This document shows, one piece after another, positions 3,886-24,481 of a stretch of DNA of 27,691 bases. The DNA comes from a virus, in IMG/VR virus record IMGVR_UViG_3300042090_000708, positions 1-27,691 of that record; one strand, 5' to 3'. The position numbers and the translations under genes were made by a program. The notes beneath the pieces are model-generated. The model made no database searches, was not told the origin of the DNA, and worked only from the letters and a program-made list of their open reading frames with translations. Each line of letters starts with the position of its first letter. Position 1 is the stretch's first letter.

Positions 3886-6800
3886 ATGTCTAGATTTAAA
3901 GAACCCGCTCAATTGCACAATCACTCTAAATATTCATTGCTCGACGCCGTTCCCTCTCCTGAGGAATGGGTTGGATGGTGCTTGGAGTCCGGTACTCCAG
4001 CGTTGGCCATCACTGACCATGGTACAGCTATATCGATGTACGACGCACTGAAGTGCAAAGACTTCATCAAGGAATACAACAAAGAGCACAAGACAAATCA
4101 TTCCCTCGATGCTGTCACCCTAATCCCGGCTGTCGAACTATATGTTAAGTTGAACGCTGAAGATAAGAGTCATTACCATATCACTGCGTGGGCTGCTTCT
4201 ACTGAAGGATATCACAACCTCATGAAGCTCTCTTCCTTAGCATACCAAGATACTGTTTCATTCTTTGGATCAGTGAAAGCTAGAGTTACATTCGACCAAA
4301 TTAAGCAGTACAAGACCGGTATTAAGTTCGGAACTGGTTGTATTGCTGGTCCCATTGGTAAGGCTTTCTGGGACAATGATAAAGCGTTAGCGGAAGAACG
4401 ATTCTTAATGTACAAGGAGATTTTTGGTGAAGAGCTCTACGTCGAGTTTCACTGCAACGATGTCACTCATAATTTTAATAAGCAAACTGGGGGTTTTGAC
4501 CCAATCCCAGGCGATGAATGCTCTTGCGATGGAAATAAACAAAAGTACTACAATATATTCCTCAGAGATATGGTGGACAAGCATGGGGGGAAGTGCATAC
4601 CTGTCACGGATGCTCACTTCATTATGCCGGAAGACAAAATCATTCAAGATTGCCTTTTAAAGAACGGTAACTCTAATGGATGGTACTTCTATGAGTCGTA
4701 TCACCAGCTTCGTTCCGAACAAATGTTTGATAAGTTAAAGACCCATTTGGGTGATTGGCTTACAGAGGAACGTTTTACTGGATGGATTGAGAATACCTAT
4801 GAAGTAAGCGAAGCAGCAAAAAAGATTGAAGTGAAGTATGAATACCACTTACCTAAAGTAGATATCCCTGAACATATCAAAGATCTTACGGAAGATTACG
4901 ACAGGCAGACATACTACTACATGATGGAGCTCATAAAGGAGCACGGTCGTTGGAAGGGTGATGCAGTCTATACAGCCAGGTTCAAGCAAGAACTTGATGT
5001 CATCATGAAGAATGAGAAGCTAAACTTCATACCTTACTTCCTGGTCTATGAGGATATAGGTAGATTTGCCCGTTCCAAGGGCATTCTCCAGAGTATTGCC
5101 AGAGGCTCTGCTGGTGGTTCGCTCATCAGCTATTACTTAAAGATCACGCACGTAGATCCTATACAAGCTAACTTACCGTTTGAGCGCTTCTTGTCTCATG
5201 CTCGTATTAGGGCTGGTTCTTTCCCAGATATAGATGCCGATATTGGTCACCGGGCACGTTCGCTCATCATGGAGCACTTGAAGGCGCGTTACGGGTCTGG
5301 GTTTGCCCAGATAGCGACGTTCCAGCAGATGAAGACTAAGAATGCCATTAAGGACGCGATGTTTGCGTTGTATGGCCGCAACAGGAACGACCCTGAAGTC
5401 AAAGCTATATGTGATGCTATCCCAGACTCTCCGCAGGAAGTACACAGCGAATACGACTTCCTGTACGGATTCACAGATTCGGAAGGTAACTATAACGCTG
5501 GGCAAGTTGAGATCAACAAGCAGTTGTCAAACTTCTTTGCTACATATCCGGACGTCGAGAAGATGGTGAAGAAGCTCATTGGCACTATTCGTGGATGGTC
5601 TCGACACGCCTCTGCCTTTGTTATCTCATCGCTTGATCTAGCGGCTGATCGTGTGCCAACCATGGTGATGAAAGATAAGAGTCTTGGCAATGTGGTGTGT
5701 ACTCAGTACGACGCCACCATGGTAGAGAAGTGCGGTCTTGTAAAGGCCGATATTCTTGGGATTAAAACTCTCACCGCAGTTTCTGACTGCGTAGATATGG
5801 TGAAAGATAAGGTCGACTATCTAGAAGAAGTTGACGGTGTTCCTTACATCTATCGCTTACCGGAAGATGAGAAGGTCTACGTTGACTTTTACAACAAGGA
5901 TACAGACTCATCCTTCCAGTTCAACACGGAGCTCATTAAAGGATATGTCCAGGAGTTTTGCCCTCTAAAACGCGTTGACCTTTCTGCGTTCACTGCCTTA
6001 TGTCGTCCTGGTGCGCTCGATGCGCCTTTCTTCGATACGACAGCGGCCCAGTTTTTCATGGACGTTCGCAACGGGAAGCGGGAGATCAAGTACATACACA
6101 AAGACCTAGAAACAATCCTCAGTTTGAGCAACGGTGTCTTTGTTTTCCAGGAAGAAGTGATGAAGTTCCTGGTGGATATCGTAGGGTATACGTGGGAAGA
6201 GTCGGATCGTATCCGTGATGCTATTGCCAAGAAGAAGCAGGACGTCATCCAAGCAACATTCGACAAGATCAGAAAGTCGTGTGCGGCTAGAGATTGGGAT
6301 GAAGAAGCCATAGAGACTGTGTGCCAGCAGATTGAAGCATTCTCGCGGTACTCGTTCAACAAGTCACATGCCCACGCGTACGGAGAGCTCGGGTATATAA
6401 CTATGTACTTGAAGAATCACCACCCACTAGAGTGGTGGGCAAGCGTATTGAATGCGTACATTGACGATGAGAACAAGGTTCGTCACTACATCTCTAAGCT
6501 TGGAAACCTGGTTAGACCGCCGTCTCTTAAGTACCCTACTGATAAGTTTGCCGTGCGTGAGATTAACGGGGAGCGATACATCGTCACTCCGCTCTCAGCT
6601 ATTAAAGGTGTTGGTCCTGCCGTTGTTAGAGAGCTCTGCGCCAAGGGACCGTTCGCAAGCAACGAAGATTTTGTGAGCAGGATAGATCACGCTAAGGTTA
6701 ACTCAGGTGGGATATCGTATCTCATCAAGGGAAGAGCGGCGGACGACATGATGGATGCATCTATAGTTGATTATGGGCAGCGCAGGACTGCATTCATCGC

Positions 6801-7323
6801 AGAGTATAAGCGCCTCAGAAAGAAAGAGATCCGGCTGCAAGAGGATATCCTCAACGTTGACCCTCTCTCTGTCTTCTTGATGGAGAAGGAACACAATCAA
6901 GCTTTTAACAAACATCTATTGGCTGACTCAGGTATAGTGAACGTGCTGAAAGGTAGATGGCCAGCTCTAATTGAGACCGGTAGACCAGGTATCCCACTCA
7001 TGATGGGAGGCATACCGATACTATCAACGGTGAAGGTAGCTGAGGGTCTGCAGAAGAAGGGCCATCAAACTGAGGTTGGGATGATACTTTTATTTGAGTC
7101 ATCCTCGCATACTAAAGGCATCTCTAAAAAGTCTGGTAGACCATGGTCCAAGGTTTCTGTATACTTATCTGACGGCTATTCAACTATAGAGTGCACATGG
7201 TGGGACAGAAAATCAGCTCTGGGATGGGAAAAGAACTCGATAGTTTATGTAAGGGGAAAGTTGAAGGAAGGCTGGAAAACTCCAGTCAACCTTCAAATTG
7301 AAGAGATTGAAAGGATTGAGTAG
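3886..7323 (+). CDS. dnaE: DNA polymerase III alpha subunit (DnaE-like) with PHP domain
   Basis: 1145 residues, close to bacterial DnaE. The N-terminal PHP domain keeps metal-ligand motifs LHNHSKYSLLD (H11, H13), ITDHG (D44, H45) and PVTDAH, so it may still be a metal-dependent proofreading or phosphatase domain. The C-family polymerase core shows RGSAGGSLISYYLKI (from R406) and the catalytic PDIDAD motif (D448, D450). The third Asp is D622 in KADILGIKTLT, aligned with the conserved DFLGLRTL. The helix-hairpin-helix region and a C-terminal OB-like domain (about 1040-1145) complete the layout. It is the replicative polymerase of the phage. ATG 3886 is preferred over an upstream TTG at 3871 because the -10 box ends 6 bases before it and the PHP domain begins right after. 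No SD is present; the message is predicted to be leaderless. Confidence 0.95.
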   Translation: MSRFKEPAQLHNHSKYSLLDAVPSPEEWVGWCLESGTPALAITDHGTAISMYDALKCKDFIKEYNKEHKTNHSLDAVTLIPAVELYVKLNAEDKSHYHITAWAASTEGYHNLMKLSSLAYQDTVSFFGSVKARVTFDQIKQYKTGIKFGTGCIAGPIGKAFWDNDKALAEERFLMYKEIFGEELYVEFHCNDVTHNFNKQTGGFDPIPGDECSCDGNKQKYYNIFLRDMVDKHGGKCIPVTDAHFIMPEDKIIQDCLLKNGNSNGWYFYESYHQLRSEQMFDKLKTHLGDWLTEERFTGWIENTYEVSEAAKKIEVKYEYHLPKVDIPEHIKDLTEDYDRQTYYYMMELIKEHGRWKGDAVYTARFKQELDVIMKNEKLNFIPYFLVYEDIGRFARSKGILQSIARGSAGGSLISYYLKITHVDPIQANLPFERFLSHARIRAGSFPDIDADIGHRARSLIMEHLKARYGSGFAQIATFQQMKTKNAIKDAMFALYGRNRNDPEVKAICDAIPDSPQEVHSEYDFLYGFTDSEGNYNAGQVEINKQLSNFFATYPDVEKMVKKLIGTIRGWSRHASAFVISSLDLAADRVPTMVMKDKSLGNVVCTQYDATMVEKCGLVKADILGIKTLTAVSDCVDMVKDKVDYLEEVDGVPYIYRLPEDEKVYVDFYNKDTDSSFQFNTELIKGYVQEFCPLKRVDLSAFTALCRPGALDAPFFDTTAAQFFMDVRNGKREIKYIHKDLETILSLSNGVFVFQEEVMKFLVDIVGYTWEESDRIRDAIAKKKQDVIQATFDKIRKSCAARDWDEEAIETVCQQIEAFSRYSFNKSHAHAYGELGYITMYLKNHHPLEWWASVLNAYIDDENKVRHYISKLGNLVRPPSLKYPTDKFAVREINGERYIVTPLSAIKGVGPAVVRELCAKGPFASNEDFVSRIDHAKVNSGGISYLIKGRAADDMMDASIVDYGQRRTAFIAEYKRLRKKEIRLQEDILNVDPLSVFLMEKEHNQAFNKHLLADSGIVNVLKGRWPALIETGRPGIPLMMGGIPILSTVKVAEGLQKKGHQTEVGMILLFESSSHTKGISKKSGRPWSKVSVYLSDGYSTIECTWWDRKSALGWEKNSIVYVRGKLKEGWKTPVNLQIEEIERIE

Positions 7324-15577: not shown

Positions 15578-17554
15578 ATGGCATGGTACGATGACTGGTT
15601 AAAAAATAGAATATCTGGTGAGATTAGTGACCTTTTAAAGGCTGACGGCATATCTACGCCCTCAGGTGCACCTTCTGCAGTTCCGGACATTGCTAACGGC
15701 GATAAGTTGCCAGACGTTCCAGAACCTGAACAGGATTCAGGCAAAGATATAGGTCGTAAGGCTTATGTAGATGACCCATACTTTGATCTGATCGGTTCTC
15801 AGGTTAACTACAAGTTTAAACTTACTCGTATCTCCAACAAGACCCTCAAAGAGGTATCTGTCCGCGACTGGCTCATTTCTGCGATCATCCAGTGCCGCGT
15901 AGACACGCTCGTAAGGTTCTCTCGTCCAGAGCACAGACGTTTTGAGATGGGCTTCCGCATGGTTAAGAGAGACGGCGAGACTCATTACTCCGACGATGAG
16001 AAGGAAGAGATTGCAATGATAGAGGACTTCCTCTATAACTGCGGTCGTAAAGAGGGAACTCCAGCTGAAGATAAGAGACATTTTGGTGAGTTCTTGAAAG
16101 TGATAGCTCGCGACGCGCTTACGTTCGGTCACGTAGCTATTGAAAAAGTTAAGACACGTAAAGGCGGATTGCATAGGTTCAGACCGCTTCCGGCTGAGTC
16201 TATGTACCTCATCAACAAAGCTCTCTCAAAGGACCAAGTTTCTTCGAACGCTATGAAGAACTACCAGCTGACGCGTCCTAAGAGTGACAACGATCCTAAG
16301 GCAAAACAAGAAATTAATGAAGCCACGAACGAGTTTATCAAGTACGTTCAGATCTCTTACGACAACCGTCCATTAGCGACGTTTGGCGACGAGGATTGTA
16401 TCTTCAGGTTATTCAACCCTCAGAACTTTGCAGACTCTATGGGTTACTGCTATTCTCCACTTGAACTTGCTATTATCAACATTACGAACCACATGAACGT
16501 GGAGAATTACAACTCTAACTTCTTCACGCATGGCTATGCAGCTCGTGGTATCCTTCACTTGAAGGGCACTGTAACTCAGCAGCAACTTGCCAACTTCCGC
16601 AGGACTTTCTACAACAGCATCACTGGTCACCAGAATGCTTGGAGAACTCCTATTGTTGCGGGTCTTGACGATGTTCAGTGGGTACCGATGTCCGCTAACG
16701 CTAAGGAAATGGAGTACCTTAACTATAATAACCATCTTATGCGTATTCTCTGCGCTCAGTTTCAGATTGACCCTGTTGAACTTGGTTTGGACTACCTCAC
16801 GTCTGCTAACGGTCGCGCACCTATGCAGCAGGCCTCTAACGAGTACAAGATCACCTACTCTCGCGAACGCGGCCTAGTTCCGCTGCTCATGTTCATTGAA
16901 GATCTCATCAACAATGACATCATGACTGCTTTGGATAACAATTTGGCCCTTAAGTACAAGTTCGTGTTCACTGGCATGACAGAGGAAACTCCGCAAACTG
17001 AAATTGCTCAGATGCAAGCTGAGATGACAGTTTGGAAGACGATGAACGATCTTCTGAAGCAAGCTCAGAAGGACAAGATTGATGAAGTTGCAGCAGACCT
17101 TCCGCTCAACCAAGCATTCTGGGCTCTCGTCGAGAAGAACTACACCCGCGGAGAGATCCGTGAGTTATTCTTTGGAGATAAGGGAGCAGCTAGCAGAAAA
17201 GAACTGCAATATATTCCTGGCGATCAAGCTTTCTTGGCATGGCAGCAACTGCTGCTCACTATCGACAACGTGAAGAAGCAAGAAGCTATGCAGGCTTCTC
17301 AGCAGGACGCTGCAACTCAAGAAGCTCAGATGAAGATGGCCCAAGAGCAGCAAAAGCATGAGCACGCTGAAGCCAAGCACGGCCGCGACAAAGAGAAGCA
17401 CAACCTTGAGATGGAGCAGATTAAGTCAAAAGCAGCTTCTGACGCTGTAGCTCACGGTTTAAAGGATACCGCTAAGGAATTTGGTGCAACTAAAGCGTCA
17501 AATATCGGTGGTCACACTGGCGCCAACCCAATAAACGCTATGGGTAATGAATAA
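15578..17554 (+). CDS. Portal protein
   Basis: 658 residues. The core has the typical portal pattern: SPLELAIINITNHMNVENY with the following FFTHGYAARGIL, and later an ordered SANAKEMEYLNYNNHLMR region. The N-terminal 60 residues are flexible. The last 100 residues are a Gln/Lys/His-rich coiled coil (EAQMKMAQEQQKHEHAEAKH) ending in a Gly-rich tail, longer than in T4 gp20. It forms the 12-fold ring at the head vertex, docks terminase and nucleates assembly with scaffold. Predicted leaderless start; the neighbour upstream is the large terminase. Confidence 0.93.
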   Translation: MAWYDDWLKNRISGEISDLLKADGISTPSGAPSAVPDIANGDKLPDVPEPEQDSGKDIGRKAYVDDPYFDLIGSQVNYKFKLTRISNKTLKEVSVRDWLISAIIQCRVDTLVRFSRPEHRRFEMGFRMVKRDGETHYSDDEKEEIAMIEDFLYNCGRKEGTPAEDKRHFGEFLKVIARDALTFGHVAIEKVKTRKGGLHRFRPLPAESMYLINKALSKDQVSSNAMKNYQLTRPKSDNDPKAKQEINEATNEFIKYVQISYDNRPLATFGDEDCIFRLFNPQNFADSMGYCYSPLELAIINITNHMNVENYNSNFFTHGYAARGILHLKGTVTQQQLANFRRTFYNSITGHQNAWRTPIVAGLDDVQWVPMSANAKEMEYLNYNNHLMRILCAQFQIDPVELGLDYLTSANGRAPMQQASNEYKITYSRERGLVPLLMFIEDLINNDIMTALDNNLALKYKFVFTGMTEETPQTEIAQMQAEMTVWKTMNDLLKQAQKDKIDEVAADLPLNQAFWALVEKNYTRGEIRELFFGDKGAASRKELQYIPGDQAFLAWQQLLLTIDNVKKQEAMQASQQDAATQEAQMKMAQEQQKHEHAEAKHGRDKEKHNLEMEQIKSKAASDAVAHGLKDTAKEFGATKASNIGGHTGANPINAMGNE

Positions 17555-17705
17555 GTTATACATGAGGTCTGATACTGGTGATGTTATCACTAAGGAGAAA
17601 CGTGACTCCGTCATGTATCTCATAAAGATCTTGTATAGACTTAACATAATCAACGTAGATCAAGCCCTATATATCGCTATGCAGTTCAAGATTCTTTCTG
17701 TATAA
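17547..17705 (+). CDS. 52-aa small protein, unknown function
   Basis: ATG 17547 overlaps the portal stop by 8 bases. The protein is 52 residues with a hydrophobic helical second half (SVMYLIKILYRLNIINVDQA), which may be amphipathic or membrane-associated. The TAA stop (17703-17705) sits inside the next -10 box (GTA TAA T). It fills an otherwise empty gap between portal and kinase genes. No family is recognised. Confidence 0.55.
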   Translation: MNKLYMRSDTGDVITKEKRDSVMYLIKILYRLNIINVDQALYIAMQFKILSV

Positions 17706-19189: not shown

Positions 19190-19600
19190 ATGGCTGACAA
19201 CGGCAAGATGGACAAGAGATGTCCTCGCGGTCTAGAATGCATGCCCGGCGAGTGGTGTCCACTTGCCGTTCTAAGATTGCGTGCGATCAGGACAGCCGGA
19301 CGAGAACTCACGGAAGATGAAGAGTCTAAGCTTCCAGGTTGTCCGTGGGCCGTCAACCATCAGGTAGCCAACTATTGTTTCTTTAAGTACATCCAAGATT
19401 TTTCTGGTGACAAAGCCCCGTCAGATATAGAGATAGCATCGTTGAACTGCATCTCCGTGGAAGCCGTCAAGAAGACTGAGAAAGCTGCGCTTAGCAAGAT
19501 ACGTGAAGCAGAGCAGTTTAAGAGTCTCAAGGAAGACATGAACGGCGAAGGTATCGTGTCGGAGTCAAAATCAGAAGATGACTACAAAATCCACAAATGA
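19190..19600 (+). CDS. Cys-rich protein with sigma-region-4-like HTH (putative)
   Basis: 136 residues. The N-terminal half has five ordered Cys (C11, C17, C23, C51, C63; CPRGLEC, WCPLAV, GCPWAV, NYCFFKY), which could bind Zn or an Fe-S cluster. The C-terminal half DIEIASLNCISVEAVKKTEK with AALSKIREAE has the spacing of a region-4/LuxR-type HTH. It sits in the head cluster and could be a transcriptional regulator of late genes; the metal ligand is not determined. Confidence 0.6.
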   Translation: MADNGKMDKRCPRGLECMPGEWCPLAVLRLRAIRTAGRELTEDEESKLPGCPWAVNHQVANYCFFKYIQDFSGDKAPSDIEIASLNCISVEAVKKTEKAALSKIREAEQFKSLKEDMNGEGIVSESKSEDDYKIHK

Positions 19601-19808
19601 TCATTTTTTAGATGCACTGCGCTATGGGTATACAACCCCGCAGGAAATTGCACGCGACAAGCTCTGTGAACTACTCACTAAGCTAGGCATAAAGTCCGCC
19701 GACAGGTTCATGGGCACAGTTCGCGTCGAGTCACTAGATCTAGTCCTAGACAATGTCACGTTCGACGTAAAAGATCTTAAACTCTGGTCCCCTATAAAAA
19801 AGCCATAG
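19578..19808 (+). CDS. 76-aa protein resembling the capsid protein N-arm
   Basis: 76 residues, overlapping the previous gene by 23 bases. Residues 51-70 (ESLDLVLDNVTFDVKDLKLW) align without gaps with residues 51-70 of the major capsid protein (ESLEATLKSITFDMKNLKFW), 11 of 20 identical and at the same residue numbers. The first 50 residues are mostly helical (PQEIARDKLCELLTKLG) and do not clearly match. It could be a truncated capsid paralogue or a small protein that docks in the capsid lattice. No strong SD sits at normal distance (GGAG is 14 bases away); translational coupling is likely. Confidence 0.65.
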   Translation: MTTKSTNDHFLDALRYGYTTPQEIARDKLCELLTKLGIKSADRFMGTVRVESLDLVLDNVTFDVKDLKLWSPIKKP

Positions 19809-19836: not shown

Positions 19837-21507
19837 ATGGCCAAGAAACCACTTGAGATTGACATGTGCTCGGGGTCCCAGCTAAGGGATACCCAGGGTG
19901 AAATGCTCTCCGTCGAAGGAGCAGACATCGGCGAATTAGAAGCCGGCAGGGGTCGTCTTAACGACAATCACGGAAAGGGTTTCTTTAACTCCGTGGGCAG
20001 GGTCACTGAAGCTAAGAAGATATTCAAAGCTGAAGACTGCGATAACGATCGTCACAGATACTACTGGGAAAAGGTTAAAGCTCCTTATATATATGTCCGC
20101 GGATATCTATATGACGACGACGACCATCCCAATGCCCGAGCGGCAGCAGCTATCTTAAGAAATGTTCACAAGACAGATTGCCCACTGAAGCTCAAAGCTT
20201 CTGTTGAGGGTGGCGTCGTGTCGCGCGGTATATCGGATCCTTCCTTGCTCGCGCGCACGAAGATCCATTCAGTGGCTCTCACATTCACTCCAGCTAATAC
20301 GGCAACACTCGTCGAGCCTTTAAACCTTGATAAGTCTTCATCAGATGAAAAAGCAGACATGATACTAATCGAGTCTGTTTTGCATCTAGCACAGACAGAG
20401 GTGCCTTCTTTCAGGCACATCGTTCGCGATGCTTCTGCTACGAGAGTGGTTGAAAATATCGAGAAAATAGCAGAATTAGTAAAAGTAGAGGGCGGGAACA
20501 TCCACGTTCCATCTAAGAGTGCTATTATTCAGTATGCACTTGAAGCTAAGGTTCATAGCAATGTTGCTAAGATAAAAGATGTCGTTCGCGAGATAAAGCA
20601 GGACGAACTTGAAAAAGGTATTAAGTCTGCCATCGCTGGTGCGGCACTCGCTGGAGCAACAGCTCTCGCACCATCGCAAACAGCCGGTCCACAAGACGTG
20701 AAGCAATCAGCACAAGTTCAGCAGCAACAGAATGCTGAGCCAACAGTACCTTCACCTGATCATCAAAAGGCATTTCAAGGTTTTGCAAAGCAAAATCCTC
20801 TGCTCGGCGCAATCGGCATGGTTGAATCAAGCGGTGGAGCAAACTACAAGCACGCACCTATTAATGATCCTAAGAGCCAGCATGCTGGCCACACAGCTGG
20901 CGGCATGTTCGGCATGATGCCTAATGCTGCAGTCTACATTCTTCACAATGATCCTAAGTTAGCAGCTAAATATCCTAAGTTATCTGAAGCAGCTAAAGAT
21001 GTGAACAAGAATCATACGGTATTTACAGAGACGTTCAACAGGGATCCTCAGGCTGCTTACGACTTCGCTGATGCCCTCATGCGAAGAAATAAGACAAAGA
21101 CGCGCGATATAAATATGTTAATTCATTCGTGGAATCATGGACTTAAAGGTACATGGGAACGCTATAAGAATGAAGGTCCGGAAGCTATACAAGACGCCGA
21201 CTACGTTCAAAAGGTGCTTGGAGCTTACAAGAAATTGCAGCCCCATAATGCAAAGAAACCAGCTAAGAACCTTAAGAAGGCGCTCACTGCTGGGTACGGT
21301 GGAGCTGGCAAGCCCACAGATCTGGGCGGCGGGGGAGTTCTACAGTCGGAAGCAATGGATGACGGACGAAGTTTTAAGTACGTCACTTGCGACGACTGTG
21401 GTAAAGAACAGGTCTATTCTAAGTATCAAGTTAAGTGCAGAGAGTGCGGTGGCTCTTTTCCCATGGAAAAGTTGCACAAGTTGTTCCTAGGAGCAATAGC
21501 TACTTAA
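19837..21507 (+). CDS. Prohead protease fused to transglycosylase-like domain, capsid-arm segment and zinc ribbon
   Basis: 556 residues in four parts. (1) Residues 1-165: herpesvirus/T4 gp21-type prohead protease, with candidate catalytic His45 (LNDNHGKGFF) and Ser122 (KASVEGGV), then IHSVALTFTPAN. (2) Residues 175-310: a helical linker with an Ala-rich hydrophobic stretch and a Gln-rich segment. (3) Residues 318-467: lysozyme/transglycosylase-like, Glu330 in GMVESSGG, then GGMFGMMP and SWNHGLKGTWERY. (4) Residues 481-505 repeat the capsid protein arm, followed by a CxxC-x12-CxxC zinc ribbon (C518, C521, C534, C537). The gene stands before decoration, scaffold and capsid genes, as expected for the maturation protease. 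The fused peptidoglycan-type domain is unusual; it could be packed in the head and act at infection. Confidence 0.8.
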   Translation: MAKKPLEIDMCSGSQLRDTQGEMLSVEGADIGELEAGRGRLNDNHGKGFFNSVGRVTEAKKIFKAEDCDNDRHRYYWEKVKAPYIYVRGYLYDDDDHPNARAAAAILRNVHKTDCPLKLKASVEGGVVSRGISDPSLLARTKIHSVALTFTPANTATLVEPLNLDKSSSDEKADMILIESVLHLAQTEVPSFRHIVRDASATRVVENIEKIAELVKVEGGNIHVPSKSAIIQYALEAKVHSNVAKIKDVVREIKQDELEKGIKSAIAGAALAGATALAPSQTAGPQDVKQSAQVQQQQNAEPTVPSPDHQKAFQGFAKQNPLLGAIGMVESSGGANYKHAPINDPKSQHAGHTAGGMFGMMPNAAVYILHNDPKLAAKYPKLSEAAKDVNKNHTVFTETFNRDPQAAYDFADALMRRNKTKTRDINMLIHSWNHGLKGTWERYKNEGPEAIQDADYVQKVLGAYKKLQPHNAKKPAKNLKKALTAGYGGAGKPTDLGGGGVLQSEAMDDGRSFKYVTCDDCGKEQVYSKYQVKCRECGGSFPMEKLHKLFLGAIAT

Positions 21508-23038: not shown

Positions 23039-24481
23039 ATGAACGACGCAATTAACCAAGTTCTACAAGGCCTAGACCAGGGTCTCGTGTCCGCAGGCGA
23101 CATCGAAGCTCTGAATAAGGCAATCACTGCCGGTTACGGCGGGGCTGGTAAGCCTACTGACCTCACTTATGGTGGCGTCCTTCAGGCCGAATCTCTCGAG
23201 GCAACTCTGAAGTCGATCACTTTCGACATGAAGAACCTCAAGTTCTGGCCATCAATCTCTGTCGATAAGGCTTATAACCTGTTCGAGCAATACAACCGTT
23301 TGATCGCGTACGGCTCTGATAGCGTACCTTACATCGGTGAAGGTGGCGCTCCTCAGGAAGAAGACTCGACATACGTACGTGACGGTCAAAAGATCGTATT
23401 CTTCGGTACACGCCGCAGAGTATCGCATCAGATGACACTTGTTCGCGTTACTGTTGGCGACATCGTTGCACAACAAGCGAAAGAAGGTACGATGCACCTT
23501 CTGAAAAACATCGAACGTGAACTCTACTGGGGTCACGGTCACTTCATGAACCAAACAACCGGTCTTGAAACCGGTTCGGATGCTGACCTTCCGGTTAACA
23601 GCATCGCGATGAGCGGCTTGTTAAAGCAGCTTCAAAAAGGCGACACGGATGCACAAATGCAAGCCGGCGACTTTTTGGGCTACGGTGACAACAGCTCCAT
23701 CCAAACAGACCTTGGCGGTAACGTCATGGCTCAAGACGATATCGAGCGTTTGGCTGTTATCGCCCTTGAAAACTTCGGTGCTCCGGACCAAATGCACATC
23801 GAACCAGCTTGCTTAAGCGCGTTCGTAAAGCAGTTCTATCCGCAGTTCCGTTCAGCTCCTGGTCTTGCTAACCAAACAGTTGGTTACGATGTGTCGAAGG
23901 TACAAACTACCGCCGGCGCTATCGACCTTAAGCCGAACCTCTTCTTGCGTCCTCGCGCTGGTGTTCGCACCCTCGCAGTGAACAGCTTGTCTCCTGCTAA
24001 CACCTTTGCAGTTACTGCAACGGGCGTATCTGGTACGTCTACTTTCGCAGCTGGTACTTATCAAGTATCGGTAACGGCAGTGAACGACGCTGGTGAATCT
24101 TCGCCAGTGAACACGACTGTAACTTTGACCGCTGGTCAAAACTTGCAGTGCGCAATCAGCGCTCCTCCAGCAGGCGTTAAGTACTGGAAACTTTATTTGT
24201 CCGCTCCGGGCGGCGCTGCAGGTACTCAGCAATTTGCTGGTAACTGGGCAAACGTAGGCGCAGCTAACTATGTTAGCTCGAACGTTCAACTTCCTGGCCT
24301 TGGAGAAGCATTCTTGCTCGATATGAGCGCAGAATGCATGCGCTTCAAGCAACTTGCTCCGCTCTCGAAGATCAACTTCGCGATCGTGACAACTGCTCTG
24401 GAATTCGCGATCGTTATGTACGGTGCGTTGTTCGTGTACACTCCACGATTCAACACTCTGTTCAGGAACATAGGAAAGTAA
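23039..24481 (+). CDS. Major capsid protein with inserted Ig/FN3-like domain
   Basis: 480 residues preceded by a strong SD (AAAGGAG). The N-arm (27-51, TAGYGGAGKPTDL then GGVLQAE) is shared with the protease fusion. The following ESLEATLKSITFDMKNLKFW is shared with the 76-aa protein. The body (about 60-310) fits an HK97-fold capsid protein (SLSGL-like core not claimed). Residues about 318-418 form a beta-sandwich of fibronectin/Ig type (YQVSVTAVNDAGESSPV, then VKYWKLYLS). The C-terminal segment (425-480) returns to the capsid fold (FAIVTTALEFAIVMYGALFVY). It is the last gene before a strong terminator, and its location after protease and scaffold is canonical. Confidence 0.9.
   Translation: MNDAINQVLQGLDQGLVSAGDIEALNKAITAGYGGAGKPTDLTYGGVLQAESLEATLKSITFDMKNLKFWPSISVDKAYNLFEQYNRLIAYGSDSVPYIGEGGAPQEEDSTYVRDGQKIVFFGTRRRVSHQMTLVRVTVGDIVAQQAKEGTMHLLKNIERELYWGHGHFMNQTTGLETGSDADLPVNSIAMSGLLKQLQKGDTDAQMQAGDFLGYGDNSSIQTDLGGNVMAQDDIERLAVIALENFGAPDQMHIEPACLSAFVKQFYPQFRSAPGLANQTVGYDVSKVQTTAGAIDLKPNLFLRPRAGVRTLAVNSLSPANTFAVTATGVSGTSTFAAGTYQVSVTAVNDAGESSPVNTTVTLTAGQNLQCAISAPPAGVKYWKLYLSAPGGAAGTQQFAGNWANVGAANYVSSNVQLPGLGEAFLLDMSAECMRFKQLAPLSKINFAIVTTALEFAIVMYGALFVYTPRFNTLFRNIGK

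Follow-up and report, generated by a model that had tools for sequence, protein, structure and literature searches.

Capsid match of the 76-aa protein

Why would a phage keep a piece of its major capsid protein (MCP) in a separate, very small gene? The question arises from a 27,691-nucleotide stretch of viral DNA (IMG/VR record IMGVR_UViG_3300042090_000708, referred to here as the window), in which a plus-strand gene at 19578 to 19808 encodes a 76-aa protein (P0001; MTTKSTNDHFLDALRYGYTTPQEIARDKLCELLTKLGIKSADRFMGTVRVESLDLVLDNVTFDVKDLKLWSPIKKP), its start overlapping the stop of the upstream gene. An earlier note had described an ungapped match, with 11 of 20 residues identical, between residues 51 to 70 of this protein (ESLDLVLDNVTFDVKDLKLW) and residues 51 to 70 of the MCP (ESLEATLKSITFDMKNLKFW), which is encoded at 23039 to 24481 on the same strand (phrog_752, E = 5e-54) and is a relative of SPO1 Gp6.1 (PDB 9vel). 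This match was confirmed. Over residues 51 to 73, termed the arm-B segment, 12 of 23 residues were identical, again without gaps; the copy lies at 19728 to 19796 and its parent at 23189 to 23257, both on the plus strand. The ungapped local BLOSUM62 score of 75 exceeded all of 1500 shuffles (mean, 26.5; standard deviation, 3.8; maximum, 52), giving a Gumbel P value of about 4e-8, and the comparison with an MCP profile was likewise significant (E = 4.6e-5).

With the 76-aa protein as a phmmer query against 8,630 ORFs from 80 related loci, nearly every MCP was matched, the best at an E value of 1.4e-5. The remaining significant matches were short ORFs occupying the same slot, and nothing else. 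When 50,697 phage records were searched by tblastn, SPO1-group major head proteins were returned at exactly the arm-B segment, at the edge of noise (E of about 8). No match was found in Pfam, the PHROG search yielded a single insignificant one (E = 0.083), and a peptide-pattern search of IMG/VR revealed no close homolog. Relatives were reached through comparison of the slot and through DNA patterns specific to the copies. One of them, encoded at G008:161894-162142 in a 175-kb genome, within an array close to the tail operon, is homologous across both the N-terminal helix and the arm (31 of 59 residues identical, E = 3e-17).

The capsid-like part is short. Only MCP positions 44 to 74 align, which amounts to approximately 23 to 30 residues, and the rest of the protein includes a helix module common to dozens of tiny proteins. 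The suggestion that the gene is a shortened capsid paralog was therefore abandoned: there is no homology over the HK97 capsid fold, the N-terminal part contains the helix module of another family, and several other proteins with this module carry segments of the sheath, tube, baseplate or tail region instead. The shared numbering that the note had pointed out proved to be coincidental, since the segment sits elsewhere in the proteins of L008, L062, G008, G001, and L200. The 76-aa protein is thus a two-part fusion in which the shared helix, a short module, is joined to a retained copy of MCP residues 51 to 73.

Helix module shared with other tiny proteins

The module comprises residues 22 to 39 (QEIARDKLCELLTKLGIK), encoded at 19641 to 19694 on the plus strand, and was recognized by an iterated module HMM with an E value of 1.9e-4. 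AlphaFold2 modeled the 76-aa protein with a mean pLDDT of 55; a helix was predicted only for residues 21 to 35 (pLDDT of about 70), and the arm was of low confidence. The module occurs in two types, LLxLLxKLGIKSA and FLxFLxKTGNxAA. Across related genomes and neighboring contigs, the module profile (consensus KKVNARYNLLRLLVKLGII) matched 59 small ORFs at E < 0.1 compared to 1 in the reversed control. The genes are both dispersed and arrayed beside the tail operon. The part that they have in common is approximately 20 residues long and does not contain the KA(I/L)TAGYG sequence present in the MCP and the protease, and many module proteins end in a tail without a recognizable parent.

A helix module of the same kind is found in a 52-aa protein encoded at 17547 to 17705 on the plus strand, orthologs of which follow the portal gene in close relatives. 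At E < 0.1, a profile of this gene matched 37 small ORFs, including 9 orthologs in the same place, and none in the reversed control. In arrays of the G011 type, where the module is C-terminal, its final LGV may contribute an in-frame Shine-Dalgarno sequence for the overlapping next gene. This idea is inapplicable to the window protein, in which the module is N-terminal. The G011 array itself (G011:144489-149745; also L180 and L181) lies directly upstream of the tail operon and is an unbroken run of about 35 to 40 tiny genes, many of which overlap. An LLxKLGVI-like motif is recognizable in most of them, and one is a capsid-arm copy.

Slot in the head operon

The window gene occupies an accessory-gene slot between a conserved 136-aa gene (19190 to 19600, plus strand) and the gene of the prohead protease. 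Same-slot counterparts are present in L201, L008, and L062. Elsewhere the slot is empty or holds homing-endonuclease-like genes or other tiny genes, with several in tandem in L055 and L040. The tiny genes encode the same helix module as the window protein, and their tails differ: capsid-arm tails occur in L008, L062, L201 and, truncated, in L004, and W(D/N)P...G.G.E tails occur in L003, L005, L007, and L055.

Judged by sequence motifs, homing-endonuclease-like genes of the GIY-YIG and HNH types also favor this slot, which is a hot spot for them (L021, L026, L031, L048, L053, L071, L076, L077, and L082). In six loci (L009, L011, L015, L016, L017, and L022), the protease gene is inverted to the minus strand within an otherwise forward head operon. 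The MCP contains a confident beta-rich insertion at residues of about 320 to 420 (window 23999 to 24300; pLDDT, 80 to 92), and Pfam gave weak DUF4397/FN3 matches to this protein. The remainder of the MCP model was poor, and the model as a whole (pLDDT, 48.9), arm region included, was unusable.

The position of the window gene within the head operon, overlapping the upstream gene, would suit an assembly regulator whose arm would sit in the acceptor groove of its cognate virion protein to delay, cap, or chaperone polymerization of the capsid, sheath, tube, or baseplate. We consider this explanation unlikely. Head-slot genes of relatives bear tail-protein segments or are missing altogether, and arm-B copies turned up in part of the clade's genomes only; both points also weaken the original proposal that the 76-aa protein caps, counts, or regulates growth of the capsid lattice.

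Virion segments carried by the family

Judged from sequence, the tiny proteins constitute a family that joins the shared helix module to one 15- to 50-residue segment of a virion protein, and the 76-aa protein has both traits (module, E = 1.9e-4; MCP residues 44 to 74, E = 4.6e-5). To find the segments, 101 profiles representing larger phage proteins were compared with the module proteins, alongside a reversed control. From the capsid, MCP residues 44 to 75 occur in 11 proteins and residues 229 to 266 in about 8, and residues 132 to 168 are also represented. Segments from other proteins derive from tail sheath residues 1 to 19, the N terminus of a tail-tube-like protein, the N terminus of the baseplate wedge, and residues 119 to 138 of a large tail-region protein (cl44). 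Parent functions were assigned as phrog_752 for the MCP, phrog_279 for the sheath, and phrog_6/Baseplate_J for the wedge; the designation tube-like for cl48/cl51 derives only from their position just after the sheath gene and an N-terminal pattern, and cl44 was taken as a tail-region protein solely from its place near the baseplate gene.

For MCP residues 44 to 88, matches were obtained in G001:97170 (3e-8), the window (4.6e-5), and G011:146001 (0.003). The tube-like N terminus was matched by G009:124744 (3e-6), the baseplate-wedge N terminus by G014:21048 (3e-4), and sheath residues 1 to 19 by G002:176173 (1e-4), whose module-like helix was not called by the HMM itself. MCP residues 241 to 268 matched G014:20788 at 0.04, which is weak when taken alone. 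E values of single segments of 15 to 30 residues are modest, and the case rests on their recurrence, on the reversed controls, and on an array in L287 described below.

The capsid-arm profile, A6, was built from MCP rows as well as copies; two further profiles were built from tails only. The one made from four WDP tails matched cl44 residues 119 to 138 in all 6 genomes with a clustered cl44 (best E, 6e-7), and the one made from seven GxP tails matched MCP residues 235 to 266 (best E, 1.8e-4). The lowest E values of their reversed controls were 0.77 and 1.1, and in both cases the parent virion protein was the next-best match after the small proteins. When these three profiles were searched against six-frame translations of 27 whole records, only parent proteins and small proteins were returned. 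Outside the MCP, no capsid-arm, GxP, or WDP copies were found in the isolated phages SPO1, EalM-132, DAC20, and Mx1. The clade is known from metagenomic contigs only; MAG titles name Saprospiraceae, Cytophagales, and Flavobacteriaceae, which reflects binning and is not proof of the host.

Several of the segments with the best support come from N termini or resemble arms (MCP arm, sheath residues 1 to 19, tube, and baseplate-wedge N termini), as assembly regulators would predict. MCP residues 132 to 168 and 229 to 266, however, lie outside the N-terminal arm.

Two other groups of proteins were observed in these genomes. One, a family of small proteins, shares NGQW(T/S/E)L.K near its start (G001:96429-96713, G002:160804-161115, G008:162155-162448, and G009:123854-124150); some of its members resemble residues 81 to 102 of the 186-aa protein cl26, perhaps a further copied segment. 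The other, scattered in multiple copies over G010:139038-162434, is made of YYENGSxxYExYYLNxKxHRVDGPA repeats.

Exchange of segments between genomes

Copy-specific DNA patterns identified additional capsid-arm copies in IMG/VR, namely, in L200, L201, L207, and L287. The L287 contig was reached solely through the capsid-arm DNA pattern. Its operon at 4491 to 6819 comprises six segment-bearing genes on the variant module FLxFLxKTGNxAA. Three display capsid segments, MCP residues 44 to 72 (6e-7), 132 to 168 (0.006), and 229 to 266 (3.4e-9 with an earlier profile), and three display tail segments, from the tube-like protein (0.001), the baseplate wedge (7e-6), and cl44 (1.3e-7 with an earlier profile).

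Module and segment occur in both orders, and segments have been swapped at one and the same slot of related genomes. The genes G008:161894 and G009:124163 have the same kind of neighbor, an NGQW protein, and have upstream sequence and module in common (17 of 38 residues identical; E = 0.004 in a single comparison), whereas the former ends in the capsid arm and the latter ends in MCP residues 229 to 266. Similarly, G001:97170 and G002:176173 have a similar preceding gene and a CSCP linker in common; the former starts with the capsid arm and the latter with the sheath N terminus. Most arrays are codirectional with the late genes, and some are opposite to them or located among nonstructural genes (L287, G010, and L200).

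Age and retention of the copied segment

Over residues 51 to 73, the 76-aa gene and its own MCP gene are identical at 39 of 69 nucleotides and use the same codon for only 3 of the 12 identical amino acids, while MCPs of neighboring phages share codons at 14 to 18 of 21 to 23 positions. The copy is therefore old and has been kept at the protein level. A recent origin from the MCP gene, by DNA duplication or gene conversion, was ruled out, as synonymous sites have largely changed. The same observation disfavors the view that small ORFs acquire random gene fragments through recombination and retain them without reason. Turnover of small genes is indeed great, and homing-endonuclease-like genes enter the slot as well, yet the same segments recur across genomes, in frame and with similar limits, and those that could be recognized derive from virion proteins. 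We regard such a by-product as very improbable.

Among six copies, the positions retained were those conserved in the distant MCPs of SPO1, EalM-132, DAC20, and Mx1 (Spearman coefficient, 0.71; P = 9e-5). The copies showed no tracking of their own MCP: at clade-variable sites they were generally no closer to it than to the clade average; the G011 copy, closer to its own MCP, is a clear exception. Nor was a better fit to a foreign MCP lineage seen among the four distant MCPs. A search with the VESL pattern returned three small copies and one clade MCP.

Retained residues that follow the conserved residues of the MCP arm are what assembly regulators would show, and the failure to follow the own MCP at variable sites is contrary to that explanation. 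A different possibility is that the copied arms poison the assembly of coinfecting phages. The genes are accessory, turn over fast, and diverge from their own MCP, as a weapon against rivals might. However, the MCP arm is almost invariant across the clade, so that relatives and self would be hit equally, and we judge interference of this kind to be hardly probable.

Capsid-arm copy in the prohead protease

The earlier note had also reported a copy of MCP residues 27 to 51 in the protease, and this copy is real. The 556-aa prohead protease (phrog_1028; 19837 to 21507, plus strand) carries it at residues 481 to 505 (KALTAGYGGAGKPTDLGGGGVLQSE; 21277 to 21351, plus strand), C-terminally and ahead of a zinc-ribbon-like end. 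The copy is present clade-wide with the pattern KALTAGYGGAG.PT..GG.V.QSES. A recognizable copy of this segment (arm A) was also detected in SPO1 gp3.2 and in the EalM-132 protease (E = 0.002 to 0.005). K27-A28 of the MCP is invariant and presumably corresponds to the N-terminal processing site of A511 Cps. The protease copy may be a site of self-cleavage or of docking to the prohead.

Since SPO1 and EalM-132 have the arm A copy too, the protease copy predates the tiny-protein family and is a distinct feature, and the copies in the protease and the 76-aa protein need not form one docking system. What stands of the proposed shared docking module is a defined segment common to separate genes, which looks like a short reusable module. 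The proteases of Herelleviridae (phrog_1028; SPO1 gp3.2) resemble the tiny proteins in copying a segment of the MCP N-terminal arm; they differ in being large conserved enzymes outside the family, with the copy surrounding the likely MCP cleavage site.

A protease must enter the prohead, and its MCP arm segment, present both in this clade and among SPO1-like phages, is consistent with virion-incorporation tags, in which the segment would dock a small protein into the head or tail and the module peptide would be carried to the next cell. The model for such tags is the targeting sequence common to the internal proteins of T4. The two-part design, its two orders, and the use of both head and tail segments fit such tags. 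They nevertheless seem quite unlikely to us, as the shared part is merely about 20 residues long, MCP residues 132 to 168 and 229 to 266 are improbable docking arms, and most module proteins have no recognized virion segment.

Protease length varies in the related loci. Variants of 934 to 1007 aa were found in L041, L042, L044, L054, L075, and L080, with repeats of the type FGPQHMDKAFNDNDPHVRRAA, HEAT-like by eye, in that of L080; the others are about 300 aa or, as in the window, about 550 aa.

Decoys as a candidate function

We tentatively propose that the tiny proteins are competitive mimics, likeliest as decoys for host sensors of virion proteins, a mechanism that we infer. Each would display a virion segment recognized by some partner and would occupy this partner without supplying the remainder of the virion protein. 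The helix module would supply a common second property, such as folding, dimerization, or partner binding. The partner might be either the lattice of the virion or a host protein that senses virion proteins. The likeliest partners would be host sensors of newly made virion proteins. The repertoire would then work as a set of decoys that spans capsid, sheath, tube, and baseplate and is refreshed as segments are exchanged on one and the same module. It is possible, if doubtful, that the arrays form a self-epitope repertoire. Their tiny genes would then present short pieces of virion proteins encoded by the same phage on a helix common to all, would be traded and diversified from genome to genome, and would serve as a decoy library against a battery of host systems that sense capsid, sheath, tube, and baseplate proteins.

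Decoys are favored over assembly factors because the type of segment is unrelated to the gene neighborhood and patchy in presence, and because the copies are not closer to their own MCP at variable sites. Segment swapping and the breadth of targets favor host sensors as the partners, as do the arrays that face away from late genes or lie elsewhere. Other observations argue against decoys. A binding-competent segment might trigger a sensor instead of blocking it, as in the case of Gol; the direction of most arrays suits an assembly role too; the tails of many module proteins lack a recognizable parent; and docking of the copies on the capsid lattice would account for the retention pattern equally well.

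There is precedent for sensing of virion proteins. Gol, a 20-residue core of the T4 MCP, accounts for most of the recognition; it binds EF-Tu and triggers Lit (PMC3014915). CapRel is triggered by an MCP, with escape changes confined to one short region (PMC9712102), and DSR2 is triggered by a tail tube protein and blocked by the small phage protein DSAD1 (PMC11263360). Sensors for the capsid and the tail tube, together with a sensor blocker, thus provide a precedent for the decoy reading. Like the window segment, Gol of T4 gp23 is a short segment from a highly conserved region in the first quarter of the MCP; Gol on its own is recognized by host EF-Tu/Lit (PMC3014915, PMC9712102). Gol is part of a full capsid protein and triggers defense, whereas the present copies are carried by separate tiny proteins. 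DSAD1 is comparable in being small, phage-encoded, and able to block a sensor that recognizes a virion protein (PMC11263360), as the window family may do. CapRel establishes the MCP as a direct trigger of defense (PMC9712102). It is a host sensor and not a phage protein. DSAD1 is not known to share a helix with other proteins, to belong to an array, or to copy part of a virion protein. Several small internal proteins of T4 have one short N-terminal capsid-targeting sequence in common. Their shared part is a targeting signal, whereas the window family shares a helix and differs in its virion segments.

A family of tiny proteins with a shared helix and interchangeable virion pieces is apparently undescribed. 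The members tested were not recognized as a family in PHROGs, and our literature search on capsid-fragment decoys or such arrays found nothing relevant. If these proteins are decoys, the copied segments would mark the virion parts that bacteria sense and would offer ready-made inhibitors. If they are assembly factors, the segments would reveal docking sites in capsid, sheath, tube, and baseplate. Under either reading, the many tiny phage genes now annotated as hypothetical would become open to testing as a class.
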